Assembly: GCF_041146795.1 (NCBI RefSeq)
Contig: NC_135176.1
Location: 23,127,786-23,191,785, forward strand
DNA from: Maylandia zebra
Lineage: Eukaryota > Chordata > Actinopteri > Cichliformes > Cichlidae
Direction of reading: 5' to 3'
Length of the DNA: 64,000 bases
Every line of letters begins with the position of its first letter. The first letter of the stretch is position 1. The notes beneath the pieces were generated by a model, which worked only from the letters and a program-made list of their open reading frames with translations, did not search any database and was not told where the DNA came from. This document shows, piece after piece, positions 9,343-50,599 of the stretch. The translations under genes and the position numbers were made by a program.

Positions 9343-12300
9343 ATGAGAGATTATGCTGAAACCATTGGTTTTCTGGGGCAGTGGGGACGTTTCCAGCAAA
9401 TTGTCTTCTTCTCGCTCGTTGCCACCATTATGCCAAATGGATTTGGTGCTTTCACTCTCGTTTTTCTGACTGATACACCGAGTCATCACTGCCTGGTATC
9501 TGGTATCAACCTCACTGAAGACTGGCGTAAAAGTGTCATCCCAATCAAAGTAAGTGACTGCGAGAGCCCCAACTCTGTGATACAGCACATCAAAGAAAAC
9601 ATTTAAACTACTGATGCAGTTTTTCAGTGATAATTGAGTTTGCTTCAAATATTTTTCCAATAATGTAACTCAAAACATTTGTATTTATTCGAACACATTT
9701 ATGCTTATTTCAAAACAAAAAAAACATGCTTGGGAGAAGTAGAAAACTACTTTTGGGAACTAAATGAGTTTTTATGTTGCTGGTAGTTGAAAGTTTAAAA
9801 AAAAGCAGTGTAAACAATACATTTAAACTAAAAACCATTAAATCTTTATGAAATGCAATAAAATATTGCAAAACAGAAATAGGAAAAAGCACAAAGTTCA
9901 AGTTCCCTGGTCGTCAGAAGATCCACATTTCCAAGAAATAGAAACCGGTAATTGTGTATTTTGTGAAACAGAAGAGGAGGATTTGGACCATCTATTCTTT
10001 TTGTGCAATTTCATACAAATATTTTGGTTGGAAAAAGCACAAGGGAAGTGTTTCTGGGGAGACAATAACCCGATGTACCAGTTGCAGGAACCCAAAAAAT
10101 AATAGGTGTGTTTTGTCATGATTCATATAATAGTGATGATGGATTTTTAGGCTAATAGTTAGGCTAACACACTTTCCTCTCATCTTTTCTTTCCTTACAA
10201 AACCATAGATCCTCCACTTCTTGGGCTATTTTGGTTCCTGCAACTGGTCCGTCAGGTTATTGTCTCCCCAGAAACACTTCCCTTGTGCTTTTGGAAATCT
10301 GTTTTTTCCTATTCCTGTTTTAGTTATTCCTATTTCTGTTTTCGTTTGTACTATTTCCGTTGTATTTATGTGTTTTTGCAGCATTTTTGTTATTGCTGGT
10401 GTTTTTTTAAGTTGCAGTCCATTTGGCCTCTCAGGGCCACCGTATAGGCCCATTGTTGCCTAAATATTACATATTTTTGTAAACACTATGACATCCTACT
10501 GAGTTTTTCTTAAATGTCTCAATACTAATAACCCTAAAACTGTTTGTATCCTTGTGACTATGAGGAGGTGGATGGGAAACAGGAGCTGAGCAGATGCAGC
10601 AGATACAGGTTGGATGTGGTCAGAAATCTCTCTGCTCAGGGATACATTCCTGGCAGGGATGTCAACCTTACAGACCTGGAGGAGGAGGGCTGTGTAGATG
10701 GGTGGAGCTATAGCAAAGACATCTATGAATCCACTATAGTTTCTGAGGTATGGTCAATCCTTCTTCTACATCTACTTATTTTTCATGTAGTATTTTTTAG
10801 CAGCATCAGCTGTTTTTTCTTGATGTTGCAGATATATCATTAAGTCCTTAGTCTATGTGGCTCCTTTCCTCCTACCCTATCCAAGACAGGGGATTTCAGC
10901 CCATCCATTTATTCAACAGTTAGGACAGAACACACCTGTGAACATACAGTAGGTGCAGTCAGTCAACATAGGAACATGATATAAATTCCTCTAGAAAACT
11001 CTTTCTCTACTGTTATCAACATGGCTTATTTCTCATTATCTTGTTGTAATCTTGTTGACCTTTGAGTCTTCAGCTTGTCATTATTTTGTCAGTGCTTAAA
11101 GTTCAAGGTGCTCTTTGGGGATTAGTTTCTGCACACCAGGAAAGACGCACCCTTTTTCTTTCTACTTAGAGTGAAAAGACATTTGAATACAGCCAGCAAC
11201 AGTCAGCACAAATCACACTGACTTTAACATTGTTATTTCCTGCATGCACATATTCAGTCATTCAACTGTTAATATCTCATTTTCCAGTTTGACTTGGTGT
11301 GCAGTAACCAATGGAAGCAGCCGTTCACATCTACTGTTTTCTTCGTGGGAGGACTCCTTGGATCGTTCTTGTCAGGCCAGCTGTCAGACAGGTACTGACA
11401 TGAGATTCATGTGAAAGAGACCAAACACCACACCATTCTTTAAAGGTTCAGGAAAGGCTTCCGTGTTTCGATATTAAGATTGTCTTTATTGTAAAAAGAA
11501 ATAAAAATGAAAATCATTTAAAAAGATCATGTTACAGTATACACTTATAATAGTCAGTAATATAAAAGACATGTATTATGCCGCTGAAAATGCTACATCC
11601 AGACGAACTTTTCTGTGATTTTAATTGATGATGGAGTTGTATTTTTACCAGTATAATAAGAAATAGAGTGGTAGAACACAGTTATTATTTTGAGATATGT
11701 ACTTATTTATTTTCAATTTGTGCTCCTTCCATCCAGATTTTTAGATGCAATTCACACAACTGTATAGGAAGTACAACACTTTTTATGCATGTATATGTTT
11801 ACTAATATATTTATCTTCTCTGTCTAGATATGGCAGAAAACCCGTTCTTTTTGCAGCTTTGGCACTACAGACAGTTTTCACCTTTGCTCAAGTCTTTTCT
11901 GGTTCATGGATTATGTTCCTCATCATCCTCTTCATCAACGGTTTGGGACAGATGTCCAACTTTGTGGCTGCTCTTGTGTTGGGTAGGATGGAACATTTAT
12001 TTAGCTATGATGCAAAACTAAGGGCCAGATTTATAAGAGGGTGTCATGGTCCTGTGTCAGTGACCCAGTGTTTTTGAGTTTTGTGCTTTTAGTTTTTGAT
12101 TTCTTGCTCACTTTAGCTCCTCAGCCCTTTAGTATTTCTTGAGTTCTCATTTCAGGTTTTGTTATGTGGCTTCCCTGTGTTCTGCGTTTCCTGTTTTACT
12201 TTTAAGGTCTGTGTCTCTTGTCTCGTCATGTTAATTAGGATCAGCTGTGCCTCCCTCCTGTTTGCTGTCCCTTTTTCCTTTTGTGTGTGTATTTATAGTG

Positions 12301-15300
12301 TGGGGTTGTCTTTGCTCACTGTCGGACCGTCTGTGTTACTCGGTGTATCTCTGTGGCTCTCTGCTCTACATTCTCTGTGTCATCCCTGCTCATCATCCCG
12401 TGTAGTTATGGTTTCAGGTTAGTTTTGGTAGCTCCCCATTCTGCATTTCCTGTTTTTTGCCACTACTGTAAATAAAGCTCACTCGCATCTCAGCCTGTAC
12501 CTGCATCTTGGGTCCTTACTCTCACACACCACATGACTGCTGCCGCAGCCGTGACAGTGGGACAAATTGTAATGACACCACAATCCTAAAAAGTGCCAAT
12601 GGGAGCGTTAGGTTCTACTGCTGATCTACTAACATCATGCCAATTAATAAATGATGCAGTTTGAAAGATGCATTTTGATGCAATCTAACACAAGGAGCAT
12701 AAACTAGGGAGCCAAGAATAGAAAACACCAGAGGAATGTCTAAGTGCAGGTTTTACACGTGTGCTTTGTACAGCAAAAAGAGCAGCAGATGTTTTGATAT
12801 AAGTGCAAAATTAGTCAGAAACTGAAGTCAGGTGACAGCTCAAATGGAGTGAAGGAGTCATTCAGAAGACAGCTGCTTTATTGCAGATCATTCTGCTGTA
12901 ACTCTCACAGCTAACCTGTCAGGTGTCACATCACTCACATATTTCTGAGTAGTTTCTGCAGCCTCTATGCTTTTATTCAGTTTCTTAATGCACACTGTGT
13001 GCGTTTAGTCTGTGTGCCATATATACCCAATGGCAAGGTGCATTTAATCCTCACAAAAATCACTCTGAAACACATTTTGACAAGTCTTTACTGGCAAGCC
13101 CCCGCTGCCTCCAGCACTTTCAGTCTTTCCAGGGGTCTCAGCACACTTTTACATAAAATAACAGGCAGTGATTGGCAAATTTGCTGCAGATGCGTGAACC
13201 CTCTCAGTGGACAGTGCTTCTAGAAGCACTCTGTCTCACGTGTCCCTTTGCAGCTGAGCCACAAACCACACCTCACTGCCATAAACAAATTCAGATGTTA
13301 AAAAAATATACATGAAAGCTTATTTATTGTGGGGTGGCACTCTGCATGGTGATGATAACATACAAACAGAGTTTTTTGTGCAATCTTCAGTTTGTTTCCT
13401 TTTTTTGTTTTGTTTTTTGTAACACATAAGTTTTTATTCATCATTACCCCCTCTTTTTTTGCAGGTTCTGAGGTCTTAACTGGCAAAGTGCGTGTCCTTT
13501 ACTCATCTTTGGGCACATGTCTAGGCTTTGCTATTGGATACATGATACTTCCACTCTTAGCATACTTTTTAAGGGACTGGAAATCACTGTCATTGGCTTT
13601 ATCTTTGCCTTGTGTGGCCTACGTCCCCTTTTGGTGGTAGGTGGCACTAGCTCTAGCATATCTATCTCTCTACATATCTTTATATAGCATTCCCTGTAGG
13701 AACTGAATCAAATGTATTGACTTGCTTGAAACTGTGGTGGACATTAGTCAGGGGGGAGTTTCCATAGACTGTGACATACACAGATGATATTGTTATCTAA
13801 AGAAAGAGTACGGTGTAGGTGCAAGAGAGCCAAGCCAGGTGGAAATATGGACTGCAGGAATGATAGCCAGTAGAAGAATATGTATGTGAACGAGAGGGAT
13901 GCAGTTGGAATGGTGAAGATGCAAAGAGAGGGTAGTGAGGCCTGCTGTAATGTAAGGTTTTGACACAGTAGTGTTTACAGAAAGACATGAGGCCAAAATG
14001 AAGATGGCAGATTTTTCAGTTACTAGAAGCAGACAAGATTAGATATAAATATTTTCTAGGGACAGCTCAATATTTGGAGAGAAAAAGAGGCAAGGTTCAG
14101 GTTGATATGGTTTGAAGATGGACAGAGGAGAGATAGCTGATACACTGGGAAAAGGATGTTAAACATGGAGATGGCAGACAGGAGAAGAAGAAAATCACAG
14201 ATAAGGTTTATGGATGTAGTGAACGAGGAAATGCATGGGTCAGTGTGATAGAAGAGGATCTTAAGGATAAGGTGTGACAGATGAAGATGATCCTCTGTCA
14301 CAACCCCTAAAGGGAGCAGCTGAAACAAAAAGAACAAACTGTTCCCACTAACAAGTTTATTGACCTTATTTCACTGTCTTTTTTGCTTTGTCTCCAAAAT
14401 CCCTCTGATTAAGTCTGCATCCTTCTGTTTGTGTTAAATATTAAGCCAGGTTTATGCCAGAGTCTCCCCGGTGGTTGCTTTCTCGAGGCAGAGTTGAGGA
14501 AGCCGAGGCCATTATAAGAACTGCTGCTAAGTGGAACAAAGTTCAAGCTCCGAGGATCATCTGTGAAGACTGTGGTGTAAGTGAACTTTCACTTAAACAT
14601 TACTGGATTAACCCAAGATGCAGAACACAGTTGTTATCATTTGAAAACAAGTTCAAGTTTTACAAATAAATAAATATATTAATATATATATATATATATT
14701 TTAATATATTTGACATTTGACTGATATTATTAGTATAAAAATGCATGAAAAAAAGAAATCTTAAACATTTTTGTGTTTTAATATTTTTTGAAAAAGCCCT
14801 GCTCACACAGTCAAACTAATTTTATGTGTCTTCCAGACAGAAAAGATGCAGACACACTCCAAGGAGCATTACAATGTCTTTGACCTGCTGAGGCAGAGCA
14901 CCATGAGAGCCACAACACTCATCCTCTGCTTTGTGTTGTGAGTAAACAGTGAAGACAGTGTGGTACATAGCGACTTAATGAGACATCCTCAGATTGAGAA
15001 AATAATGAAACAACGAGAAAATTAACAAACAAGGAATTTGCTGGATTCCTCATGGAAATCAAAAGGAGAATTAGCAGATAAACAGCTAAAATGACCTGTC
15101 TCTTAACTAAAAATGATTTTTTACTAAAAGAAAATTCATTTTTCTTTTGGTTTTTCATGTATTTCTGTTTCCATAATATAAGATCTGCGATAGACAAAAT
15201 GATTACGATTTGCATTTGAAAAAAATGCATGCATGCAGAAAAATCTTTGGAAAGTTCACTTAGATGAAAAAAACGCTTTCATTTCCCTTTGATTTTCCCA

Positions 15301-18300
15301 GGTTCACTATGATTGTTGGCTACTATAGCCTGTCTTTCAATACAGCACAACTCCATGAAAACCCCTACATCAGTTGCTTCATCTCAGCAGTTGTAGAGAT
15401 TCCAGCATACATTTCCAGCTGGATGGCTCTGCTATACCTTCCACGACGCCTGTCTGTGATCCTTACGTTGGTCTTCGGAGCCGTGCCACTCTACCTGATT
15501 CAACTTGTTCCAGATGGTAAAATTTCTTAAAAGCAAGCTGCAAGAATTCACATTAGAACAATTGATGAGTCATATATAAGTTACTTATTGCTTAAAGTGC
15601 CCATACTATAATTATTCCTTTTCCTTTGATGAGTGATACACACTACTGTGATTTTTTTTTAAATTTATTTATTATGTGCTTTCAAGGACCCAGACTTTCT
15701 TGTTGGTTTTTTTGTATTTTGTCTTGGTCTTCTAAATTTCAGTCATTGTAATTGTCCATTTTAGGGAAAAAATGTTGTTAAGCCACTGTTAAGCATTGAT
15801 TTATGAATCATTCAAGCATAACAGGGCACCTAGCTCAAAGCATGAAACACTGTCGTGTCTACCTACAACTCATAACAAAGAACCTAAAGTATTGCTTTAG
15901 GCATTCGTTACTAGCAGCCTGCCATTGAAACGTGTAATTTGTTCTCATTTCTTCAGTGGAATCTATAAAATTTCAAAGATAACAGTTTGACAAGGATGAA
16001 ATTATATTTTTACAACAACAAGATGCAAAGAGTGATGTTTGCTGAAAATGCAGCATAAACTGGGATGGTGTGCAATGTATGGCTGTCAAAAAAAAACATT
16101 CCTAAGGAGGGTAAACAAAAAGGCTGAGATATACCAAAATCCTCAAGAACTGGAACAAAAATCATTTTTAAAACTTTTGGTTTAAAAGTACCTATTATCT
16201 GAAGGACAACAGCTTCAACTTTTAGCATGCCAATATAGTAAAAACATACCTATATAGAAAAACACGCATTGGCTTCCTTACAGCCTGGACCCCAACATTA
16301 TTGAAACGGTCTGGGATCGTCTTGACAGAGAACTGAACAAAAGGCAGGAAACAGACAAAGATGTGCTATCTGGAATCAAATATTGACTTTAACCTCCTTT
16401 GTACTATACAAAGGAACCTATATTCCCATATGGGTTTGCACATGTTCTAATAAATCACTGCACCTGCTTCCCATCTTCCAGGTAACATCTAAAGAAAAAG
16501 GGGACCAAAAGTCCCAAAAAATTATTTTTGGAAAGCACTGTAGCTATTTTGCACATAAAAGTTCTTCCAGTTACAAATTATAAAGCCTCTGGCAAAGATA
16601 GTTATTCTTTCATACATATAAAACATTGAACCTTTCTTTGCCTGACGTAACTGATCTATCATCAGTTATCTGCATGCAGTGACGTGTCTGCAGAGCAGCT
16701 GTTTGGCAACATTTTCTTCAAAGAACAAGAAATTGACTCAATCCAAATGCAACAGCTGCCTTAGAGCCTGCTAAAATTTTCGCATTAGAGCCCCTTCTGC
16801 TAACTCTAAAATGTCTCAAAGCATTACAAAAGTTTAGGATTACTTTTTTTTTTGTAATGTAATGTATCCTGGAAAAAGGTAGCTTCCTGTATCTTTAGTT
16901 CTAGCCTTGTCCATGGCTATTGTTGTTTACATTAGCATTAGTACTGACTGGGGGATGATTATTACAGTATCTTTCGGCCCAGAGAATGCATGAATGCATT
17001 TCTTTCTGACTTTCTGCTGGAATCCACAGTCTCTTCTGGTTCATTGTGTATCAGGAAACTACAGGTGTATGTTAAGGGCAGATAGCTTTCAGGAGACTAT
17101 GCCAAAGTTGCCTTTGATGAGCTGACAAATCACAAATCAGGCTTTTCTGGAGGTGGGGCCCTTAAAGGGACAGAGGTTGAAAAGAGGATGGAAAAAAACC
17201 CAAAGCATCAGTGTGCATTGTGCGAAATGTGATACGTTATTTAACATTGTAGGATGTGAACCAACAAAAATATGAACATGTAAATAATCATAATAGAAGA
17301 ATAGAATTTGTTTTTGTGATCTTTTCGTGTTACTAGGCAGGAAGTGACTATATGATAGGTATATGCAGAATTACCATCTTATATAAAACAAGTTTCACAG
17401 ACTTGATTAGAGTTTTGTCTCTTACTGTTTACTTATATCTACAAACTAAACAAATGTATTATTCTTTAGATCTATCAAATCTGGCTCTTGCACTGGAAAT
17501 GCTGGGTAAGTATTCAATCACGACCGGTTCCTCCCTGATGTTCGCCTACACCGCAGAGCTTTACCCAACAGTGCTCAGAAACACAGCAACGGGGATAAGC
17601 AATACTGTTTCCAGAATTGGAAGTTGCATTGCCCCTTTATTGTTAAGTCTGGGTGAGTGCATTGATTAATATTCATTTAGCATTAGTACTAACTGTTTCT
17701 GACTGTCTGTTTTACCTCATTTGATTAATGCACACTCATAAAGGAGTTTTCTCTCATCCTAACTTCCCCCTCTGTGTCTTCAGGTATGTATTATAAGTAT
17801 CTACCTTATATTATATTGGGGAGTCTGGCTGTTGTGGCTGCCTTTGCAGCTCTTTTCCTTCCAGAGAGTTTTAAGAAACCTCTTCCTGAAACTATTGAAC
17901 AAATGCAAAGACGAGAAAGGTAAGCTACTTTCATTCACAGTTTATTTTACTTTCTATGAAGTAATAAAGGCAATTGTAATTTTACATTCTTATACAGCAA
18001 GTTCTTTAAACATGGTACACAGTATGCAGAAAAGTATGTTGTCAGGCGAGTATCTGTCATTTAGGGAGTTAGTGAAAGTGACTGAGTAGAAGTGAAGTAG
18101 AAGTTTCAGGGTGACTCTAAATGTATCATCATGTTCAATTTAACTTTAAATGTTGGGTATGTAAATTTAAAAAATCATTGACTATCACTGACTATCATTG
18201 ACCTGAACACGACAGGAAGGTTAAGAAGTGAGATTGCTATTTATTTCCAAGTGAACTTTACTGCCACCAAGTGGCCAAATGTTTTGTTTTGGGGGTTTTT

Positions 18301-18497
18301 TTGCAGATTGAATGAAAGCCCTTAGCCAATAGTACAAAAAATAAGTGTTCACATCTTATAAGTAATAATGATAATGAAGTTTATCGCTGAAAATAAAACT
18401 CGTGTTTGTCTTTCCTCTTTAAAACAGGGTGAAGTGCCCATGTCTTACAAGAAATATGACGCCTGTACCTGTGGTACCAATGGACAGTTCACTATGA
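9343..18497 (+). CDS. slc22a4/5-like: OCTN-like organic cation/carnitine transporter, gene 1 of the cluster
   Basis: Predicted plasma-membrane SLC22 transporter of the major facilitator superfamily, 550 residues. Exons: 9343-9549, 10565-10747, 11288-11391, 11828-11982, 13465-13636, 14450-14576, 14837-14937, 15302-15516, 17470-17652, 17784-17919, 18428-18497. All introns are GT..AG and the chain has no frame break. Visible hallmarks are the N-terminal FLGQWGRFQQ, a PNGF turn, a Cys-rich extracellular loop with sequons N56, N90 and N103, the MFS signature [11 protein letters not shown] at 159-169, PESPRW at 277-282 and AELYPTVLRN at 450-459. Twelve membrane helices are expected from the family. 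Substrate is inferred (carnitine, organic cations or ergothioneine-like zwitterions). Exon 1 is split by an extra phase-0 intron after residue 69, shared only with gene 2. The invariant Trp at the start of exon 2 is Phe (FDLVC). The C-terminus is DSSL, a class I PDZ-type tail. The start is the first ATG, at the same position as in genes 2, 3 and 4. Confidence 0.95.
9848..10300 (+). mobile_element. L1-type LINE 3' fragment with an inverted duplicate
   Basis: Lies inside the extra intron of gene 1. An 84-codon open stretch (9848-10102) ends in a CCHC knuckle, CVFCETEEEDLDHLFFLC, followed by FW, as found at the C-terminus of L1-like reverse transcriptases. A 60-bp part (10033-10092) recurs in inverted orientation at 10233-10292, so the transcript could form a long hairpin with a loop of about 140 nt. 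Confidence 0.65.
12046..12557 (+). repeat. Interspersed repeat with TGTCATGG..CCGTGACA ends
   Basis: Sits in intron 3 of gene 1. The ends are near-perfect inverted 8-mers, the body is T-rich, and AATAAAGCTC precedes the right end. It has the same architecture as 1112-1708. It is probably a non-autonomous transposon; no coding capacity. Confidence 0.5.
16283..16385 (+). pseudogene. Tc1-like transposase fragment
   Basis: In intron 7 of gene 1. Conceptual translation gives LDPNIIETVWDRLDRELNKR followed by a decayed tail, matching the region of Tc1-family transposases around the last catalytic residue (the family pattern is SPDLNxIExxWxxL). No other part of the transposase is present. It is a dead fragment. 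Confidence 0.6.
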
Positions 18498-18664
18498 CTA
18501 TTTGTTTGTCCTGGTCTAGACAGATGTTGTTGTTGTTTACAGTCTTTTATATTTACATTTTGTTTGGCTTTGTTGTCTGTTAAATGACTGAAAGCTGTAT
18601 TATATATAAATAGTCTCATAACAAAGATAAACCTATAATTTTCTTTTTTTTGTCTTATTTAACC

Positions 18665-18670
18665 AATAAA
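18665..18670 (+). promoter_or_regulatory. Polyadenylation signal of gene 1
   Basis: AATAAA 168 bp after the stop codon of gene 1 and upstream of the gene 2 promoter. A second AATAAA follows at about 18690. Confidence 0.6.
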
Positions 18671-18870
18671 TCCTCAATAGATGGTTAATAATAAATGCTG
18701 TCTTGCACAAGTTGGAAGTTTTCCCATATTTCTTGGAAACCTATTATGCAAGTGATGGTCAAAGATTATCTTTCAACATCTGAGCATTTTGTTATTGCCT
18801 TTGTAATCTATAACCCAGTGGTGACTATAAAAAGTCAAATTTGGAGTTGATACCTTTAAGAATGCACACT

Positions 18871-18880
18871 ACATAAAAGC
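18871..18880 (+). promoter_or_regulatory. TATA-like box of gene 2
   Basis: ACATAAAAGC lies about 130 bp before the gene 2 ATG and about 200 bp after the gene 1 poly-A signal. It is the best core-promoter candidate in the 511-bp spacer. This is a motif-only call. Confidence 0.35.
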
Positions 18881-19008
18881 TCTGCAGAGTTTCTGGAGTC
18901 CTCACTTTCAGAGTAGCACTTGTTTATTTATGCAACTTTTTCTTTAAAGAGTATTTTTTACTTTCACAATAGATGAAGAAGTGATTTAAAAGACAGAATT
19001 CCAAGAGT

Positions 19009-22000
19009 ATGCAGGATTATGATGAAGTCACAGCATTTCTTGGTCACTGGGGACATTTCCAGCAAAGTGTTTTCTTCCTACTTTGTGCCAGCGTGTTGCC
19101 AAATGGATTTGGTTCTTTTTCCCTCATCTTCCTGACTGACATTCCCAGACACCACTGCCTGGTTCCTGATATTAACTTGACAGAAGACTGGCATCAAGCT
19201 ATCATTCCAATGGAGGTAAAGAAGTATATTAATTAAAAGAAACAAGAAGAGCTGCATGTAATCTTTACAACACCAGTACAGATAAGTTGTGTCAGTGTTG
19301 CAATCAAATCGTCTAAATCTAATATTTTCTTCAAAGGTATTTAATGTATTTAGTCTGAAATGTCAGTATGAAATTTGAGTCGTGAATTACATAACCACAA
19401 GACCAAGAAAAACTTCACATAAAGCAAAAATTTAGGTGAAAAAGAAATAGTATTTTCACTCTGCAGCTTTGATACACAAACTGGAACATCATTATAAAAG
19501 TCTGGCTTGTGCAAGATAACTTCTCGACAATGCGTTCTGTAACTAAGTCGTTATGACAGATGAGTCATGATAACAAAATTTGAATCATTTAAGGTGGGGC
19601 GAAATCTGCTTTGGATTTGTATGACAGTCAGTGGCAAAGGAAATGCTGCATGGCTGGAAGGAATGATAGTTCCCACTAAAAGTCTGTGAATATCACTCAG
19701 TCATTCAGCCAGCACAGCATAAACGAAAGCTACATTTGAAATAGCTTCCTTCTTTAGAAACAGAGTTAGTCAAATGCAATACCAGCCCAATACCAACACT
19801 TTAAAAGGCATATACAGTAACACACAATTATATATTATTTATAATCACACTCAGACCCATTTAATGGGCAGGACAGTTAAAGCGAATTCACAATTACTTG
19901 TAATTACCTACTTTTTTTATAAGACAACATGTTGTATGTTTGAATTAAATGTTAATGTTGGAGGATGTGCAAATTTTTTAAATGTGTGTGTCTGATATTT
20001 ACTTTAATGATCATATTTGCAGCTTTGTAGATGTATTTTCTTTGCATTCTGCAAAGCCAGCTTTAGCTTTAAGCTCAATAAAGTAGAATGCCCATATTTT
20101 ATGATAGGGTATATATTTATATGTGTGAAGGGTTATTATGAGCACTAAGTGGTCAAAATACTGTCATGGTTTGGGGTTTTATGATTTTGGACTTTGCATT
20201 CTTGTTTATTTTTAACCATTCTTTATTTTAGCTTTAGTTTTGAGTTGTGTTTTTTAGAGTTCTTACAGGTTTTAAGATTATCTTTACAAGAGTAATGCCT
20301 CTGTGTCTAATCTTTAGTTGTTGAAACTTTGTGATCTTGTTTCTGTTGGTTTTTTGAATTGTATTGTGATCGCTTGTGTTTTACTTTGATCTGGCCCTTC
20401 CAGTGTACCCCTGTCTCTTTTAGGTAATTCCCCCCTAGGTTACTTCCTGTTTTATTTTGAAAGTATTTTGTTTCTTGTTTAGTTTCGTTTTTTTTTCCTC
20501 TTTTGTCAATAACCTAATTCTCCTGTTATCCAGTTCTACATTTCAGTATTTGTTTGTTTGTTTCTGTTTGCTTGCTTTTTTGTTTGTTTTGTTGTTGTTG
20601 CAGTTACTTTAGATTTGTTTTTCTTTATCTTTCTAGAGCATGCTATTTCCTTTATAGTATGGTATTCAACACAATTTCACAGAAAAGTAAATAAATTAAT
20701 GCATTTATTTACCTGCAAGATGGTGAATGGGAAGCTGGAGCTGAGCAGATGTCGGAGATACAGGCTGGATGTGGTCAAAAATCTTTCAGCTCAGGGATAT
20801 ATTCCAGGCCAGGATGTTAATCTTACTAACCTGGAGCAAGAGGGGTGTGTTGATGGGTGGAGCTATAGCAAAGACATCTATAAATCCACTATAGTCTCTG
20901 AGGTAAGTGTGTAATACAGACAATGATTGACAATTGAAAATTAAGATCTGACGAGGCATAAACAGCACCTGAAGTCTTTGTATTGTTTTATTCAATTTTT
21001 TATGCCTGGACGTTTCAGTTTGACCTGGTGTGCAGTGAAGAGTGGAAGCAGCCGTTTACTTCCACAGTTTACTTCATGGGAGTTTTAGTTGGATCCTTTT
21101 TTTCAGGACAGCTGTCAGACAGGTAAAGTTAAAAAATAATACTTGTTTCCCCCTTTTAAGCAGCACAAACTGTATATTGATCTTTTAAATTCTTTCTAGC
21201 TATCATTACATATTAATACTTTATAATATGGCTTCCTGTAATTAGACTTAATTTCAATTTATTTTATTTGAAATTAAAATGTACTTATATTTACCTACAA
21301 ATACTTAAAGTTAGGTACACTAGAATACGTACAATTCTTACAAACAGTAATAAGTACTGTAATTTTACAAAATACAATTTAATTTTGTGGAAAAACAAAC
21401 AATATTTATTCATTGTTTATTTCTTTTTCTTTTTTTCCCTGCAAAACCACAACTTGTTATCGCCTTATTCTAGTGTACATACATTTAAGACTGTAAGTCA
21501 ATGTAATTCTTAAAAATATATTTTTTTTTTAAATATTTTAATTATTATAATTTCAAATAAAATGTGTTTAAATTCAATTTAATTACAGGCGAATTAGACT
21601 CTTATATAGTTAATAGTTTCAGGCCGTATTATAAAGTGTTTTTAATTTCTACAATTGCTCTGTTTAGCATGTAATAAAAGTCCTCATTACATTTTTACTT
21701 TATTGCAGAGTATTATATTGCTATTACCAATAAACACACAAGTATACTTTTTAATAAATACTTTATAATAAATACTTTATGATACGCAGTATGTCTTATT
21801 TGTTTTTTTACACTTATTTCATCTTTTGACTTTTCGTTGTAGATTTGGAAGAAAGCCAGTTCTGTTTCTGACCATGGCACTTCAGACTCTTTTCACTTTT
21901 GTTCAAATCTTCTCATCATCTTGGACAGTGTTCTGCATCCTCCTGTTCATCAGTGGTTTGGGACAAATCTCTAACTATGTTTCTGCTTTTGTGCTCGGTA

Positions 22001-25000
22001 AAGGCATATTTTTAGTTCTTTGGTTACTGCAACAATGTGTCCAATAACCTCCATTACCTCAAAGCTTCTGTTGGCTTTCTCTGTGTGTGCAGGCACTGAA
22101 ATCTTCACTGGCAATGTGCGGGTCCTTTTCTCATCCATGGGTGTATGTCTTGCCTTTGCCTTTGGCTTTATGATGCTTCCTCTCTTTGCCTACTTTTTAA
22201 GGGACTGGACATATCTCCTGTTAGGTATATCTCTCCCTGGCCTTCTCTACTTTCCTCTTTGGTGGTAGGTTGTTCTTGAAAAAAATAAAGCTGCGTTTGT
22301 GTTAAGTTTATCTTCTCATGAATTCATTAGACAGGGTGGGCCATTTATGGATACACCACAATAACATGGGAATGGTTGGTGATATTAAAGTCCTGTTTGT
22401 GGCACATTAGTATATGTGAGGGGGCAAACTCCTCAAGATGGGTGGTGACCATGGTGGCCATTTAGAAGTCGGCCATCTTGGATACAACTTTTGTTTTTTC
22501 AATAGAAAGAGGGTCATGAGACACATCAGACTTATTGGTAATGTCACAAGAAAAACAATGGTGTGCTTGGTTTCAACGTAAGGCAAGGCAAGGCAAATTT
22601 ATTTGTATAGCACAATTCAACAACAAGGTGATTCAAAGTGCTTTACAGAGACATTAGAAACAAAAACAAATAAAAAGCATGATTTAAAATTGATTAAAAC
22701 AAGCAAACAAACTAACTAACTAAACACACACATTTCACACCTGTTCGCGCGATCTGAACCCTTATCGTAAGGGGAGCTACCAGTCCTTCTGTGGACGAGC
22801 TACTTTCTATTTTAAATTCCCTGAATTTAAAATACTCTCTAGACCCAGTCTAGACCCAGTTGGGGAGCTACCCAGAGCTCTAATCCCACACCTGTTCGCG
22901 CGATCTGAACCCTTATCGTAATGGGGAGCTACCAGTCCTTCTGTGGACGAGCTACTTTCTATTTTAAATTCCCTGAATTTAAAATACTCTCTAGACCCAG
23001 TCTAGACCCAGCTGGGGAGCTACCCAGAGCTCTAAACCCACTTAACAAACAAACAAACAAACAAACAAACAAACAAACAAAACAGTATATAAAATCAAAA
23101 CAGATAAAATCAGAACAGTAGATAAAATCAGTTTTGAAATTTAAGCTTAACAAACAAACAAAACAGTATATAAAATCAAAACAGATAAAATCAGAAATAG
23201 ATAAGATCAGTAGTTAGTGTAAGTTTTGAAATTTGAGCTTAAAAGTGTGGATTTGGTGCTTTATTCAAATGCAGCTGAGAATAGGTAAGTCTTCAACCTG
23301 GATTTAAATAAACTGAGTGTTTCAGCTGATCTGAGGCTTTCTGGGAGTTTGTTCCAGATATAAGGAGCATAAAAGCTGAATGCAGCTTCTCCGTGTCTGG
23401 TTCTGACTCTGGGAACTGATAAAAGACCGGATCCAGATGACCTGAGGGATCTGGAAGGTTCATACTGGGTCAGGAGGTCACTGATGTATTTTGGTCCTAA
23501 ACCATTCAGAGCTTTATAGGCCAGCATCAGAACTTTAAAGTCTATCCTCTGACGGACAGGCAGCCAGTGTAAAGACCTCAGAGCTGGACTGATGTGGTCC
23601 ACTTTTTTGGTCTTAGTGAGGACTCGAGCAGCAGAGTTCTGAATGAGCTGTAGTTGTCTGACTGATTTTTTAGGTAGACCTGTAAAGATGCTGTTACAGT
23701 AATCAAGCCTACTAAAGATGAATGCATGGACTAGTTTTTCCAGGTCCTGTTGAGACATCAGATCTTTTATCCTTGAAATATTCTTGAGGTGATAGTAAGC
23801 TGATTTTGTTATTGTCTTAATGTGTTTTTCTAAGTTTAGGTCTGCATCCATCACTACACCCAAATTTCTCGCCTGGTTTGTGGTTTTTAGATGTATAGAT
23901 TGAAGTTCTCTGGTGACCTGTAATCGTTTTTCTTTGGCGCCAAAGACTATTACTTCAGTTTTGTTTTTGTTTAGTTGGAGAAAATTGTGGCACAACCAGT
24001 CATTGATTTCCTCAATGCATTTACCAAGAGCCTGTACAGGGCCTCGGTCTCCTGGTGACATTGTGATATATATTTGTGTGTCATCTGCATAGCTGTGATA
24101 GTTTATTTTGTTGTTGTTTATAATCTGTGCCAGTGGGAGCATGTAAATGTTAAACAGAGGGGGTCCCAAGATGGAACCTTGGGGAACTCCACATGTGATA
24201 CTTGTCTGCTCGGATGTGAAGTTACCTATTGATACAAAGTATTTCCTGTTTTCTAAGTATGTTTTGAACCAGTTTAGTACAGTTCCTGAAAGACCTGCCC
24301 AGTTCTCCAGTCGTTTGAGTAATATGTTGTGGTCAACTGTATCAAATGCTGCACTGAGATCCAGTAAAACTAGGACTGACATTTTTCCACTGTCTGTGTT
24401 CAGACATATGTCATTAAACACTTTTGTCAGAGCGGTTTCAGTGCTGTGGTTCTGTCTAAAACCTGACTGGAAGGCATCGTAGCAGTTATTCTGTTTTAAG
24501 AAGTAATTGAGCTGTTGAGAAACTGCTTTTTCAATGATCTTACTTTAAAATGGGAGATTTGAGATCGGCCTGTAGTTTTTCATTTGTGTCTTGTCAAGAT
24601 TGTCCTTTTTCAGTATAGGTTTGATTACAGCAGTTTTTAGTGGTTCTGGAAACACACCTGACATTAAGGAAAAGTTGACGATCTGTAACAGGTCTGACTC
24701 TAAAGTCTTTGAGACCTTTTTGAAAAAACGTAACTTTATTCTTTCATGAGTTATTTACAAGTTTCTCTTTGTTCACAGCCATTGACGTGCTGTGGGTCCA
24801 TTCTTCATCAATGGAAACCTCAAGGCCACTGGATATTTGAAATTGCTACATGATGATGTGTTTCCCTCTTTATGCACTGAAGCTGGCACGTTCCCTGAGT
24901 TTTTGCAGCAGGATGGTGCACCACCACATTATGGGTGCCAGGTCCGAGCAGTCCTAGATGAACAGTTTCCTGGAAAGTGGATTGGTCGTCGTGGGCCAGT

Positions 25001-27830
25001 TGAATGGCACCCAAGGTCTCCTGATCTGACCTCCTTAGACTTTTGTCTTTGGGGTCATCTGAAGGCAATTGTCTATGGTGTGAAGATACGAGATGTGCAG
25101 CACCTGAAACTACAGATACTGGATGTCTGTGCTGGCATTTCTCCTGCGGTGTTGCTATCAGTGTGTGAAGAGTGGGAGAAGAGGGTTGCATTGACAATCC
25201 AACACAATGGGCAGCACATTGAACAAATTTTATAAGTGGTCAGAAACTTGTAAATAACTCATGAAAGAATAAAGTTACGTTGAAACCAAGCACACCATTG
25301 TTTTTCTTGTGACATTACCAATAAGGTTGATGTGTCACATGGCCCTCTTCCTATTGAAAAAACAAAATTTGTATCCAAGATGGCCGACTTCTAAATGGCC
25401 ACCGTGGTCACCACCCATCTTGAGGAGTTTGCCCCCTCACATATACTAATGTGCCACACACAGGACTTTAATATCACCAACCATTCCCGTGTTATTGTGG
25501 TGTATCCATATAAATGGCCCACCCTGTACAGTATATAACTTCTGGCCAAGCATCAAAGAGAGTAATAAGCAATACTATAACTTCTGTTCCACCGGATCCA
25601 GGCTAAATCTTTTTGTTTCTTTGTGTTGAATACTGATGCAGGTTAATCCCAGAGTCTCCTCGGTGGCTGCTTTCACAGGGAAGAGTGGAGGAAGCAGAGA
25701 ACATAGTGAAATATGCTGCCAAGAAGAACAAAGTAGAGGCTCCACAGGTCATCTTTGATGATTACGATTCACCAGTAAGTTGGCTTTGAATTAAATCATT
25801 CAGGCACGTAAAGAGAATCTGAGGAAGACACATAAATATCTCTCGCACTACGCACGACAATACCCAAATGATCAGAAATATTACTGTTACCAAAAAAGGG
25901 ATAGAACCCTGGAGCAACAGATATTGCCATATGTACAGATGCTGAGACTGGGATTTTGTGTCTTTTAGGCAGATAAGACTCAGGCTAATGAACGTCACAG
26001 TATCTTCAGCCTGCTAAGGACTGCAAACATCAGAAACACATCGATCATTCTCTGCCTTGTGTGGTGAGTAGTAATTCAAAGCACTTATATTTTGGGGATG
26101 AATAGAATATCCTATGTGTATCGCTGAATTCCCATAAATGATGAGAGAACAGAAAAAAAAAGACAGTTTTGTTTAGAAGAGCAGTGTTTTGCTCTAAGCC
26201 ATATTTATTCACATTATATTTTTACAAGCACTTGCAGCACCATCACCCACTGCAGGCCCATAATCACCAGAGAGCTGGCTGCACTGGCCTTGCAGACACA
26301 TAATTCCTGCTGGTTTGGCACTCATTGAACACAACTAGCAGTATTCACTGGTGACAAGCGTTTGAAGGTCTTTTTCAATGCAATCCCAATAGTCTCCCAG
26401 AAAAGCTCCTTACTGGTAAGTCACTGGGAAGAGTTGGAGTGTAATGCATTGTAACGTAACACATTACAGAGATGTGATTATTGATTTTGGTAGTGAGAAG
26501 TGCAGTAGTAATATGATTAATAACAAAAACCTCATCGTTCAATTGCATGAATAGATAATATAAACCCACTACTGCTAATTCCAAGCAGATTCCTTTTCAG
26601 ATTGCTACCATGTTTTATTTGACATATGTTTACAGGTTCACTCTAAGTACTGGCTACTTTGGCTTATCCCTAAATACATCTCGACTCCATGCCGATCCAT
26701 TTATCAGCTGTTTCATCTCAGCAGCCGTGGAGGTTCCAGCATACATTACCAGCTGGCTGGCTTTGCAATACCTTCCACGACGACTCGCTGTCGTAAGCAT
26801 CTTGCTCCTTGGAGGAGTATCACTGTATTTCATTCAACTTGTGCCTCATGGTAAGCAGAAAAAATGCTCCATATTGTGTCCATAGGAGTGTCAGAGGTTT
26901 TATTTATTTATTTATATGTCTGAGGTTTTTTTCAGGCAAATCTTATCTCAAATACCGACATTAGAAGTAGGTACTGAAGCAAATTAGTATATAGCCTTAT
27001 ACAAATCTTTAATTTTTTTTTCCCTTCAGGTCTATCATATCTGTCTATTACTCTAGAGATGGTGGGAAAATTTGGTATTACCACCGGTACTGCCCTGATG
27101 TTTGTATATACAGCAGAACTGTTCCCAACAGTACTCAGGAATACTGCAACAGGAATGTGTACTACTGTATCCAGAGTGGGAAGCTGTATTGCACCATTTT
27201 TGTTAAAGCTGAGTGAGTGAAGGAATGTTTCTCAAATCTTCATAAATAAGCATTTTATCAAGTATATCTAGTGGTCTGTGTAGACTACAAATTCCCACAC
27301 TACATTACGTTGCATAAACACAAGGCCAAGGCCTTTCTCCAATCCTAATTGCTCCCTGTCTTTGTGCAGGTCAGTACTTTAAATATCTGCCTTATATTAC
27401 ACTGGGGACTCTTGCTGTTGTGTCTGCCTTCGCTACTGTGTTCCTACCAGAGAGTTTCGGACGGCCTTTGCCTCAAACTATTGAACAGATGCATAAAAGA
27501 GAAAGGTGAGATCAGTTGGAAGAACATATGTAATATTTATTGAATGTGAAACTTGTCATAAAAACTTGACCTCAGACGTAGATCTCAGACTTGTGATAAC
27601 GTAGTAACTCTGCAACTACAAAAATTGACTCTTAGTGTGTCTTAAAAGCACCAAAATAGCAATAACTAATTTGGCAGTAAACACAAAGATGGTGACACTT
27701 TTACAGACGTCCTTTCTGCAAAAACAAAACTGTGTTTTCTTTGTCTTTTGTCCCGCACAGAATGAAATGTCCCTTCATTACTAGAAAAGGACACTCAAAA
27801 CACGTGAAGATTTTTGAAAGTCGACTATGA
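19009..27830 (+). CDS. slc22a4/5-like: OCTN-like organic cation/carnitine transporter, gene 2 of the cluster
   Basis: SLC22/MFS transporter of 550 residues, the closest relative of gene 1. Exons: 19009-19215, 20720-20902, 21019-21122, 21843-21997, 22093-22264, 25642-25774, 25969-26063, 26636-26850, 27030-27212, 27370-27505, 27761-27830. Hallmarks: [10 protein letters not shown] at the N-terminus, PNGF, sequons N56, N90 and N103, SGQLSDRFGRK at 159-169, PESPRW at 277-282, [10 protein letters not shown] at 450-459. It shares with gene 1 the split exon 1 (break after residue 69) and FDLVC at the start of the next exon. Exon 5 is 6 nt longer and exon 6 is 6 nt shorter than in gene 1, so the total length is unchanged. 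Intron 4 (about 3.4 kb) is swollen by a nested transposon. The C-terminus ESRL is a class I PDZ-type tail. The AATAAA at 27933-27938 is a likely poly-A signal. Transport activity is inferred from family membership. Confidence 0.95.
20161..20540 (+). repeat. T-rich repeat related to 12046-12557
   Basis: Begins with CTGTCATGGTTTGGGG and continues with the same TTTTAG/TTTGAGTTGTG-rich text in the extra intron of gene 2. A clear right end is missing. Confidence 0.4.
22740..23041. repeat. Two tandem 151-bp units in the LINE 3' untranslated region
   Basis: CCTGTTCGCGCGATCTGAAC starts at 22740 and again at 22891. The two units are nearly identical. A (CAAA)n tract follows at about 23045-23080, then a second partial duplication of an AACAGTATATAAAATC module. 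Confidence 0.8.
23261..24421 (-). pseudogene. L2-clade LINE reverse transcriptase, C-terminal 386 residues
   Basis: Open reading frame with the reverse-transcriptase core: [13 protein letters not shown] (motif A), [10 protein letters not shown] (motif B), YADDTQIY (motif C catalytic YADD) and the following thumb region, plus the [12 protein letters not shown] and [12 protein letters not shown] segments usual in L2/Maui-type fish LINEs. The endonuclease and the first part of the RT domain are missing because of 5' truncation; the upstream frame continues to about 24540 before a stop. The intact frame suggests a fairly recent insertion. It cannot move on its own. Confidence 0.85.
24792..25235 (+). 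pseudogene. Tc1/mariner transposase, C-terminal fragment
   Basis: 147 codons of DDE-type transposase. [11 protein letters not shown] holds the second catalytic Asp and [19 protein letters not shown] the third, with about 36 residues between the two Asp. The DNA-binding domain and the first catalytic Asp are absent: the sequence upstream is already inverted repeat. A CACAG at 24773-24777 precedes the fragment and could be a splice acceptor. It is non-functional by itself. Confidence 0.8.
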
Positions 27831-44394: not shown

Positions 44395-47300
44395 ATGGGA
44401 GATTATGATGACGATACAGCATTTCTTGGACAGAGCGGTCCTTACTTCTGGACCACATTCTTTCTCCTAAATGTTGTTTTTGTGTCAACCGGATTCAACG
44501 GGCTTTACATTGTCTTTGTTGGAGCAGCTCCGAAACACCACTGTTTGATTCCAGATGTCAACCTGACCGAGGAGTGGAGAGATGCCATCATTCCCTTTAC
44601 GATAGTGGATGGTGAGGAAGTTCAGAGCCAGTGCAGCAGATATAAGATAGACGTGGTTAGAAATCTTTCTGCACAAGGATATATTCCTGGAAGAGAAGTT
44701 AACCTGACAACCCTGGAGCAGGAGGGATGTTTAGATGGATGGAATTACAGCAAAGAAATCTACCAATCCACTATAGTCACTGAGGTCAGTATTATATTAT
44801 TATGATTACTAACATGAAATTCCAGTTTTGAAAGCTTTAAGCTGTCTTTTTATTATGTAATTCGCATCTTTTACAGTGGGACCTTGTTTGTGACAACCAA
44901 TGGAAAGTTCCATTTGCATCCTCGAGTCTATTTGTGGGATATCTCATTGGGTCCCTAGTCTCAGGACAGCTTTCAGACAGGTACTTTACTCCTAATTATC
45001 CTTTTTCTACTTACCCTGAATCCACCCTGTATAATTATACCTACATTGACTTAATTATAAGACATTTTCTGTCATTTACTATATACTACAAGTCTGTTAG
45101 TTTCTCTAAATCAAGTCTGTTCATACAGTGCTGATTACAGTAGTGTCTGAAAAATAAATAGCTGGCAAATGACACTGATTTCGGAATAGTTAAAAAAAAA
45201 ACCTATAGCCACACTATATAGTGGAATTAATGACAGCAGCCCCATCTGCTGTTATAAGAGGGATGGTGCTAACACACGGGCTAATATAGTTTTGTATTTA
45301 ACATAAATTTTTATTTCCTTATTCAGTTTCTAATGTTTCCAATTTCGGTTCATTTCCAAAGAGGGTTTGTTCATTTAGCTGTGATGTTTGTTTGTTTTTT
45401 TAAACCTTAACTGTAGCTATTTGATTGCATTTCCTCACCAAAAGAAAACAAACCACATGCATTTATAAATGCTCTGTATCTGTGAATAAATATCTGCGAT
45501 ATATACGATTCCTTTCTAATCAGGTTTGGAAGGAAGAAGGTTGTTTTTATGTCTCTTGGGGTCCAGTGTCTCTCCGTCCTGCTTCAGTCCTTTTCTCATT
45601 CGTGGAGGATGTTCTGCATCATGTACCTCTGGGTTGGAGCCTCTCAGATATCCCTCTACATTTCTGCATTTGTTCTAGGTTTGAAATATAATTTAAACAT
45701 GTGTTTGGTATGATTCCTCTGTCTGCCTTCAGTAACAAGCTTGTCACTAACGATTTATGATTTCATCTTGGATAGGAACTGAGGTTTTGAGTAAAACTAT
45801 GCGTGTGCTGTTCACAACTCTCGGAGCCTTCCTTTTCTACTGCATTGGGTACATGACACTTCCTTGGATTGCATACGGCATCAGAGAATGGAGGACTCTG
45901 GTTGCAGTTCTGTCAACAACCTCTCTGATAAACTTTCCTCTGTGGTGGTATGTTTTTTATGATATCCAGTGATTTTTATTCCAATATTCATGCATAAATG
46001 CAAAGTCAATTACACTGTCAATAACTGTGAAGAAAATAGACTCTAAAACTATGTTGGTTGGGCAGGTTTATCCCAGAGTCTCCTCGATGGCTGATGACTC
46101 AGGGGAGAGTCAAAGAGGCCGAGGCCATTGTCAGAGAAGCTGCAAGTAAAAATAAAGTTCAGGCACCACCTGTAATCTTTAAAGAATCTGAGGTGAGGTT
46201 CATTCATTGTTATTAATATTAGTATTAATATATGCATTTGTCTAACATTCAGGTCCATATCTAGTATTTTCTAAAAATGGAAAAACAAATTTAGGGTTAC
46301 ATTTCTGGAAATTTGACACACAGAATGAGCCACAACATTAAAACCACTGACAGATGAAACAAATAGCATTTGTCTTCTCATTCCAATGCATTATTTTGCC
46401 GGAAAAACCTTGGGTCTTGGCATTCTTGTGCATGTTACTTTAACATGTATCACCCACCTAAATGCTGTTGCAGACCCACTCCCCACATCGTAGCAACACT
46501 CTCTGACGGCACCGGCCTCCCTCTGCAGGACAGTGCACCATGCCACACTGCCAAACCTGCTTAGGGGGGTACCACAAAGAGCCCAAAGTGTTGACCCAGA
46601 TCTGAGTCCGATCAGATATGTGGGATGCAGCGGAACAAGCCAGATCTACAGATGTCCAACCCTGGAACCCAAAGGATCCACCGCTAATGTCCCAGTGCCA
46701 GACATCACATTCAGGCCTTCAAGGGTCAGAGCTGTTTTATTGGCATGAGGGGCACCTGCACAATGCTACATAGGTGGTTTCAATGTTGTGGCTGACAGGT
46801 GTACGCTGGTAGTTTTAATATTCACAGACTAAATGTAAAAATGTGACTCTAGAGGCCACATTGAATATTTTAGTCATTTACATTTTTTTGCCCCATAATG
46901 TTTTATTATAAGTTGCTTTCTTGAATAGAAATCTAGTGCTAGTGTTTGGAATTAAGAATCATTCCTCAGATTACTATAAGATTAAAATACGGTACAATCT
47001 CACCCATTCATATCCACATAATGCTTTTTCCTTGGACAAAGCCCACATATAATCTGCTTATGATATACTGACAATAGTCTATGTACAAAAGTAGAAGTTC
47101 AAATCACATAAATTATATTCTGTCTCCATTTAACACCCAGGAATTGCCTCTTTTCAAGACATATACCATGCTTGATATTCTGAAATCCAAGAATCTGAGA
47201 TGTATCACACTGATGTGTCTCCTTTTATGGTACGTTTTATGGTTGCTTTCACCTTTTTCTGACATTTTAGGTTTTTGTAATTCAGCAAAAATAGTCAGTG

Positions 47301-48599: not shown

Positions 48600-50590
48600 T
48601 GTGAGGCCCATTCTGATGGGCAAGCTCTTTCTCTTTAGTTTATTTGATGTTAAGCGTCTTTTGCGTGAAAGTGACCATCTGAAATCCCAAAATAAAATCC
48701 CACAAGCATGCTAAGATTGTGAATTCAAGAATTCCTATAAGTATTTAGACATATTGAAAATAAAAACATTATTCATTTTTTACGGAATTGAATGGTCACA
48801 AAATTCAAGTAAAAAATTAACATTTGAACCCTATTAGCGCACAGTTCTGGTTTTGTGTTTTAACAGCTAATACCACATTTAACATCATTGTCTATTTTAT
48901 TGTTTTTACTGCCAGTGAAAAGTTTGATTTACTGTAATAAAAAGCATCATGCTACCATACTAATAAAGAAAAGGGTACAGTCAGCAGGTCTTAAGCTTAG
49001 TTAACATAAAATCTGGAAATGGCTAGCAGTTTGCTTGATTATGTCCAAAGGTAGCAAACTTCACCTGCCAGCATATCTGAAGCTTACTAATTAACTTGTA
49101 ATATCTTGTTTGTTTAAGAGAAGACAGAGCAAGGAGTTCTGGGATACCCCAACCCCCAATATTGAAATGGGGAGACTTGAAACCATTTAAGTGCTACAAA
49201 TCTTTGACTGAATCAATGCACAAGATGTTAATAGATTACATGTTTGTTTTACTGTTTTTTCAAATAAATTGTCATTGAATATTTGTTGTTAAATGTTGTT
49301 TGTTTATTTTTATGTCTTTTTTAAATATATGCTCTCTATTAATTTGTTGGGCCACTTCAAGCTGTTTTGAAATGAGAAATATAAACCACATATTGATACA
49401 TACCACTTGTTCTACAATACTGTGATTATGAATTGCTATAAAATGCAGCGAAGAAATCAGAGGTTAACGGGAGATGGAACCAAGCAGTGCTGTTAACAAT
49501 GGTGTCTCTCTAAGCTGTCATATGCTCCAAGCCTATTTAGTGAATTCTGTCATAACTGTATCAAGATAAATTCCTCTTGAGTTGCTGTCCCACATTAAGC
49601 TTTTGAAGCTCTAGCTTTAGCTTTAGCTTTAGCTTTGGAAATGTCTCAGCTGTCATTATGTAAAATGTATTAAAAACCTGTATGAAACACAAATAGAAGA
49701 GACCTAAAAAATGACACTTTACATAACTATCTGACCTCCTAGATTAAATGAGCTATATATAAATTCTGAGCTCTAAGTACTAAGAAAACGTTTTGCTTTA
49801 AATGTTAAGAAATTTAGTCACAAAATGGACAGCATAAAAATCATAACACCTTCGCAACTGGCCATCAGTATCCTCCTGAACAGATTTTTTTGGCACCTTT
49901 TATTTTATGTAATTGAATGATTGCACAAAGTACATTACTGATCTAATAACTAGAAATTCTAACTTAACCCTTTAAGACCTACCATAGAACCAAGTCCGCC
50001 AGAGCTTATAGTATATTTTTACATGCTGTGGAGCCATTTTTTGGAGCACTTCAAGTTGCTATACATCAATACAACCATTATAGCCCACATTTTAATAATA
50101 TGTCTGCATTAAGTGCATAGTAATTACGTAAATTGCAAAAAAAGTTTTGCAAAAAAAAGTTTTAAATCGTTTTTGATTTTTTAACATATATTTCTAGTTA
50201 GAGAAATGTAAGAGGCTTATCCCTCAAAACTGTAAATACAAAAAAGTTGCACAAACTAGTTTCCCACCAAAGGAAATTTATTTTAAGTGTCTTCATAGTT
50301 TTATTTTTGAGATACACCAATTTTCATATACTGCAGGAAAAACAAAAAAATATATTATAGTGCAAATTTGCAAAATAACAGCATATGCATCAAAATAAAA
50401 TATTTCCAGCAGTGCACTATGAGTCCTAAGCATCCCAGAAACGACACAGAAAGTCATAAAGTCAAACATAACTTTTAAAAACACAAGTATAGGCTCATAA
50501 GGCCACGATGGTAAAAAACTACATTTCCGCAAAATAACGTCACTTCCGGTTTCGGGCAGGTCATGCCGGACATGTGATAGGAAAACCTCC
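48600..50590. other. Spacer after gene 4, no gene seen
   Basis: Holds the 3' untranslated region and poly-A signal of gene 4, a short AGCTTT hexamer run at about 49611-49635, and a TTAACCCTTTAAGACC sequence at 49974-49989. The latter resembles one end of a piggyBac-type repeat whose other end I cannot find. Confidence 0.5.
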
Positions 50591-50599
50591 TGTGTTGTA

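Follow-up and report, generated by a model that had tools for sequence, protein, structure and literature searches.

Intron gains have been described in several gene families of ray-finned fishes, including slc26a1/slc26a2, where the gains fall in Eurypterygii and in notothenioids (Torii 2025, PMC12357937), the fish serpin genes, which contain novel introns (Ragg 2009, PMC2746811), and the linked fish MC2R and MC5R genes, which also contain novel introns (Kumar 2011, PMC3151243). Here we analyzed a stretch of 64,000 nucleotides from the cichlid Maylandia zebra (NC_135176.1, positions 23,127,786 to 23,191,785 of the forward strand; hereafter the window, whose own numbering is used throughout). 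It carries a tandem array of five OCTN-like (SLC22A4/5-type) genes, numbered 1 to 5, and the first coding exon of genes 1 and 2 is split by an extra intron. This extra OCTN intron, most likely a gain, belongs to a kind of event already known from fishes and would join the list of such gains. The original prediction, made from the sequence, had called such a gain rare in vertebrates; this has to be tempered in view of the repeated gains in ray-finned fishes (PMC12357937, PMC2746811, PMC3151243).

Taking these papers in the parts that bear on the introns, each shares some properties with the OCTN locus and differs in others. As in slc26a1/slc26a2, the genes are solute-carrier genes of ray-finned fishes with acquired introns, and the old introns are barely homologous to each other, between species in that system and between paralogues in ours. 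However, the slc26 gains were dated over 81 vertebrates while we describe one locus, and for two young notothenioid introns transposon-like sequences were identified as the source, which our analysis did not recover for the OCTN introns (PMC12357937). The serpin introns are likewise lineage-specific gains with GT-AG ends near MAG/N sites (slash, splice boundary), five out of seven of them between codons, but they are 68-178 bp long and occur in genome-compacted fishes, compared with 1015 and 1504 nt here (PMC2746811). MC2R and MC5R are, like genes 1 and 2, a neighboring paralogue pair whose extra introns agree in position and phase; those introns were traced in four fish genomes and are absent from the zebrafish and tetrapod orthologues, whereas our comparison is confined to one locus (PMC3151243). 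We saw no report of this OCTN intron among the open-licence papers listed in our searches. The main added value of the OCTN array is its setting, in which five tandem paralogues, two with and three without the intron, can be compared at one locus, together with a neighboring putative conversion tract that provides a close intronless relative at the intron site.

The extra intron in genes 1 and 2

In gene 1, coding exon 1a (9343-9549, forward strand; 69 codons, starting with ATG) is followed by the extra intron (9550-10564, forward strand; 1015 nt, phase 0, AAA/gtaagt...ctatgag/GAG) and by exon 1b (10565-10747, forward strand; 61 codons, 183 nt, phase 0 at both ends). Gene 2 has the same arrangement on the same strand, with exon 1a at 19009-19215 (69 codons), the extra intron at 19216-20719 (1504 nt, phase 0, GAG/gtaaag...cctgcaag/ATG) and exon 1b at 20720-20902 (61 codons). 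The intron thus lies after codon 69 in phase 0 in both genes, in an identical alignment column, and the two halves add up to 69 + 61 = 130 codons, with zero residues gained or lost at the junction relative to human OCTN2 and genes 4 and 5. In gene 3, three additional residues lie a few columns downstream of the junction. The first coding exon is unbroken in the other three genes: it spans 40055-39654 on the reverse strand in gene 3 (402 nt, 134 codons), 44395-44784 on the forward strand in gene 4 (390 nt, 130 codons, the second half of which forms a mosaic with exon 1b of genes 1 and 2) and 55094-55486 on the forward strand in gene 5 (393 nt, 131 codons counted from the homologous position). 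Gene 5 has ATC as its homologous first codon; starting from an ATG 12 codons further upstream, the exon would be 143 codons long. The description that had prompted this analysis, including both intron coordinates, the split after codon 69 in phase 0, the rejoining to 130 codons and the continuous exons of 130-143 codons in genes 3, 4 and 5, was confirmed, and its coordinates are exact.

These exons come from models built with a protein-to-DNA spliced aligner on a human OCTN2 scaffold, the sequence of which was taken from a PDB match and supplemented at residues 323-353 and beyond residue 484. Identity of the five proteins to this supplemented human sequence is 49-56%, and the closest solved relative of the first 164 amino acids of gene 2 is OCTN2 (9pdq, phmmer, E 7e-59). 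The models contain 10 coding exons in genes 1 and 2 and 9 in genes 3, 4 and 5; each ends with a further donor for a last exon outside the model, and genes 1 and 2 would have 11 exons in total. All remaining introns of the five genes match in order and phase, the extra intron being the sole exception.

Reading through the extra intron leads to an in-frame stop at codon 19 in gene 1 and at codon 7 in gene 2. Because of these stops, and because both lengths are 1 mod 3, neither intron is a coding insert. Both begin with GT and end with AG. We scored the splice sites of all 42 modeled introns, leaving each one out against the other sites of the five genes, and found that the extra-intron donors rank 15th (gene 1) and 31st (gene 2) from the bottom, while the gene 2 acceptor is the 11th lowest. 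No stop occurs within the modeled coding sequence of genes 1 and 2. The ratio of nonsynonymous to synonymous divergence (dN/dS) between the two genes is 0.14 in exon 1b and 0.25 both in exon 1a and overall; their synonymous divergence (dS) is 0.82, and both halves of the split exon are under purifying selection. We had also considered that one half might be an alternative first exon or a dead exon; these readings were rejected because the halves are under purifying selection and joined in frame. Exons 1a and 1b of gene 1 taken alone gave no Pfam match. In summary, the feature is real as sequence, and its signals suggest that both extra introns are spliced, in which case they would be removed as ordinary GT-AG introns and the protein would be unaltered. 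A by-product would be the separate 61-codon exon 1b; with phase 0 on either side, it could be left out of a transcript and the frame would be kept.

Some boundaries elsewhere in the models are less certain. Intron 5 sits in a region of variable sequence, and gene 2 has an exon 5 of 133 nt where the other genes have one of 127 nt. At 25642-26063 (forward strand), gene 2 combines this 133-nt exon 5 with a 95-nt exon 6, versus 127 and 101 nt in gene 1; the sums are equal, which could mean that the intron has shifted by two codons or that it is mis-bounded. In gene 4 we deleted a spurious 25-nt exon (46565-46589) by hand and re-set the end of exon 5 before making the alignments. The intron 5 and exon 6 region of this gene (46193-47158) includes the weakest acceptor of the 42 and an exon 6 of only 71 nt, so that this exon boundary is uncertain and may be wrong.

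Relationships of the five genes and origin of the intron

Protein and DNA trees, whether of the whole coding sequence or of exons 2-9, all place genes 1 and 2 as sisters (support 100/100), and the protein tree of exon 1b alone also pairs them (78/89). The deeper order is less settled. In the DNA tree of exons 2-9, gene 3 groups with genes 1 and 2, and gene 4 with gene 5 (99/99), and the approximately unbiased (AU) test rejects a clade of genes 1, 2 and 4 for these DNA data (p 0.0095). With the protein data of the same exons the test does not exclude this clade (p 0.221), and support for the deeper branches is weak. Outside the array, a review assigns 10 exons to the canonical forms of both human genes, OCTN1 and OCTN2 (PMC11354717), which agrees with genes 3-5 (nine modeled exons and the following donor); the 11-exon OCTN2 variant described there owes its difference to 72 additional bp of intron 1 and not to a split exon 1. 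A survey of zebrafish slc22 genes places octn1, octn2 and slc22a21 on chromosome 21, and the words "exon" and "intron" do not occur in its main text (PMC4982206). A scan of a prokaryote contig collection for related loci returned 58 pattern matches and no relative, as expected.

From these relationships we consider it probable that the intron was gained once, on the stem leading to genes 1 and 2 and before the pair duplicated. A stem gain is favored because genes 1 and 2 are sisters, because the three paralogues are without the intron while the other introns correspond, and because human OCTN1 and OCTN2 have 10 exons. Genes 1 and 2 would then be tandem OCTN-type paralogues descended from one intron-gaining gene. 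The gain would have split the long first coding exon between the codons that correspond to residues 70 and 71 of human OCTN2, a site in the large extracellular loop. It would be younger than the divergence of that gene from the lineages leading to genes 3-5 and older than the duplication that produced genes 1 and 2. The gain in the common ancestor of the pair that had been proposed at the outset is partly supported and is the best reading.

It is very unlikely that the common ancestor of these OCTN genes already had the intron, with exact losses in genes 3-5 and in mammals. Intron losses in fishes are known (as described in the cited parts of PMC2939575), and, since the deeper branches of the protein tree are weak, the number of losses is not fixed. 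However, depending on the tree, two or three separate and precise losses would be needed, each leaving the neighboring introns in place.

Four observations weigh against the single stem gain. First, the two extra introns show no homology in block shuffles: their best local score is 34, compared with 30.6 ± 3.2 for the shuffles, and 38 of 200 shuffles score as high. The alignment of the two introns that had been proposed as a check thus gave no sign of common origin. Second, a terminal inverted repeat (described below) is found only in gene 2, which is awkward for one old shared origin at a dS of about 0.82; with that divergence, a repeat as old as the gain should have decayed further if neutral. 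Third, the DNA tree of exon 1b joins gene 1 with gene 4, not with gene 2, albeit weakly (56/47). Fourth, the acceptor of the gene 1 intron (ATGAG/GAG) is the second lowest of the 42, and the lowest belongs to the doubtful gene 4 boundary. Use of this acceptor is favored by a branch-point-like TACTAAT at 10523-10529 because there is no intervening AG. Matches to this 7-mer are not uncommon in the window (16 versus 13.0 expected). An alternative acceptor that keeps the frame would start the exon at 10568. Weak splice sites have been reported for novel introns in Drosophila (in the cited part of PMC2809761).

Some of the same facts could indicate that the intron arose twice at one favored site, separately in gene 1 and in gene 2, which we regard as unlikely. 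The lack of shared intron sequence beyond chance and the confinement of the inverted repeat across the splice sites to gene 2 would both fit two gains. In addition, the junction codon is GAG in genes 2 and 3, close to the MAG/R proto-splice consensus, and convergent intron positions have been reported in slc26 genes (PMC12357937, in the part cited). Against this, the equal codon and phase in two sister genes are more simply explained by descent, and the missing similarity carries little weight. With lenient BLAST settings, the T-rich 3' parts of the two introns match (65% over 133 nt, E 5e-05; 62%, E 0.003), while standard scoring gave nothing between the two introns at E < 0.05, and for that reason we put the lenient matches down to composition. 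As a control, only one of the eight other intron pairs of the same rank in genes 1 and 2 (intron 8) aligns at E < 0.05. The non-alignment of the extra introns is therefore uninformative, because seven of eight other homologous pairs of these genes fail as well.

A mosaic tract in exon 1b

Next to the site of the presumed gain, we observed a tract in which gene 4, which is intronless there, is much closer to genes 1 and 2 than elsewhere (10565-10747 in gene 1, 20720-20902 in gene 2 and about 44632-44778 in gene 4). This mosaic tract is a new observation of the present analysis. Gene 1 and gene 4 share 77% of nucleotides and 74% of amino acids in exon 1b, compared with 53% and 41% in exon 1a and 44-69% of nucleotides in the other exons. 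In trees of the tract, gene 4 groups with genes 1 and 2 (62/76 for protein and 78/82 for DNA, both unstarred), a grouping that, with gene 4 intronless, counts in favor of the stem gain. A codon-permutation test detected shared fragments at alignment columns 83-131 for genes 1 and 4 and 90-131 for genes 2 and 4, each matched in 0 of 2000 permutations, and at columns 70-139 for genes 1 and 2 (19 of 2000); the remaining seven gene pairs showed no fragment in this test (at least 380 of 2000). When the likelihood preference for a clade of genes 1, 2 and 4 was summed over exon 1b, it was matched by 6 of 3000 permutations for DNA and 0 of 3000 for protein. The best segment found anywhere was matched by 110 and 107 of 3000, respectively.

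In our reading, the ancestor of genes 1 and 2 and gene 4 probably underwent gene conversion with each other long ago, a reading with several points against it. The AU test does not reject a clade of genes 1, 2 and 3 for the exon 1b DNA (p 0.292) and rejects it barely for the protein (p 0.040). The synonymous divergence in exon 1b is just slightly lower (pS 0.60 and 0.65). Furthermore, the DNA tree of exon 1a also groups gene 4 with genes 1 and 2 (80/84); the exon 1a protein tree has gene 3 in that place (52/53).

The tract may extend across the intron site. Genes 1, 2 and 4 have a one-codon deletion in common about 16 columns upstream of the site, and the best combined segment covers columns 45-124. 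For columns 45-69 by themselves, the signal does not reach significance (221 and 165 of 3000 permutations made without exon 1b). If the tract does cross the site, either the conversion predates the intron or the copied version was intronless.

Conversion also has to be considered for the intron itself, which could have arisen in gene 1 or gene 2 after their split and been copied to the other gene. Exon 1b is 86% identical in nucleotides between genes 1 and 2, versus about 73% in most exons, and the fragment of this pair starts at the intron border. However, the introns themselves bear no trace of copying, exon 1a (73%) is no closer than most exons, and slower protein evolution of exon 1b in the group may account for much of the similarity. 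We give such a spread hardly any credence.

Source of the intron sequence and other elements of the window

The intron sequence most likely derives from a transposon insertion or an insertion during end joining. One signature proposed for the search, a duplicated AGGT or flank, does not stand out among the 42 introns: the scores are 6 and 7 for gene 1 and 6 and 4 for gene 2, within ranges of 4-7 and 4-8, and the flank-versus-intron-end scores of both extra introns also lie within the range of all 42. An old flank duplication could be hidden by decay. A direct match of 9 out of 11 positions at the ends of the gene 1 intron, noticed by eye, was rejected since its direct score is 7 and another intron reaches 10.

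The only hint of a source repeat comes from the ends of the gene 2 intron, which form an imperfect inverted repeat. Its left arm (19211-19233, forward strand) spans the donor and its right arm (20695-20717, reverse strand) stops 2 nt inside the acceptor. The arms match at 18 of 23 positions, a score that two out of 6000 random placements and none of 4000 shuffles reached. Correction for the eight end comparisons on the two introns gives a significance of about 0.003, and counting all 84 direct and inverted comparisons over the 42 introns gives about 0.03. The inverted score of 13 is the top of the 42 introns, the next being 9. The gene 1 extra intron has no terminal inverted repeat above background. 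We saw no target-site duplication by eye at the gene 2 intron, and the repeat has no further match with fewer than 3 mismatches in the window. Neither extra intron has another BLAST match in the window at E 1e-3 except for the gene 1 palindrome described below.

The inverted repeat may be a weak hint of a transposon origin; it could also be a later feature, be partly selected, be due to chance, or be a sign that the gene 2 intron is younger than that of gene 1. Introners, which are transposon-derived introns, may offer a parallel, in that the gene 2 intron has imperfect inverted repeats at its splice sites, but it differs from them in that we found no second copy in the window and saw no target-site duplication (PMC9860276, in the part cited). 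It is doubtful that the gene 2 intron, or the ancestral one, was born from a short inverted-repeat DNA transposon that entered the putative conversion exon and whose terminal repeats supplied the splice sites. If it was, this would be an introner-like origin in a vertebrate, tied to a recombination-prone exon and possibly repeated at one site.

Within the gene 1 intron, a decayed reverse-transcriptase remnant of a long interspersed nuclear element (LINE) lies at 9944-10027 on the forward strand (Pfam zf-RVT, E 4.2e-06; the match covers residues 20-47 of translated 9887-10069). It is followed by a fold-back element at 10033-10292, whose 64-nt arms (10033-10096 and 10229-10292) are 94% complementary. 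No counterpart of either was seen in the gene 2 extra intron, and we take both for later insertions.

Other elements lie outside the extra introns. Intron 4 of gene 2 contains a LINE-type reverse transcriptase in a long open frame (23261-24544, reverse strand; RVT_1, E 1.4e-31). A 149-codon open frame at 24786-25235 (forward strand) has no Pfam match at E 1 or below; we assume that it resembles a Tc/mariner-type transposase. Decayed reverse-transcriptase pieces occur at 50501-51808 (forward strand; RVT_1, E 0.013 and 1.7e-07). Upstream of the array are two open frames on the reverse strand, one at 2465-2929 that has no Pfam domain match and one at 338-802 with a sub-threshold match to an immunoglobulin domain (E 0.0004).

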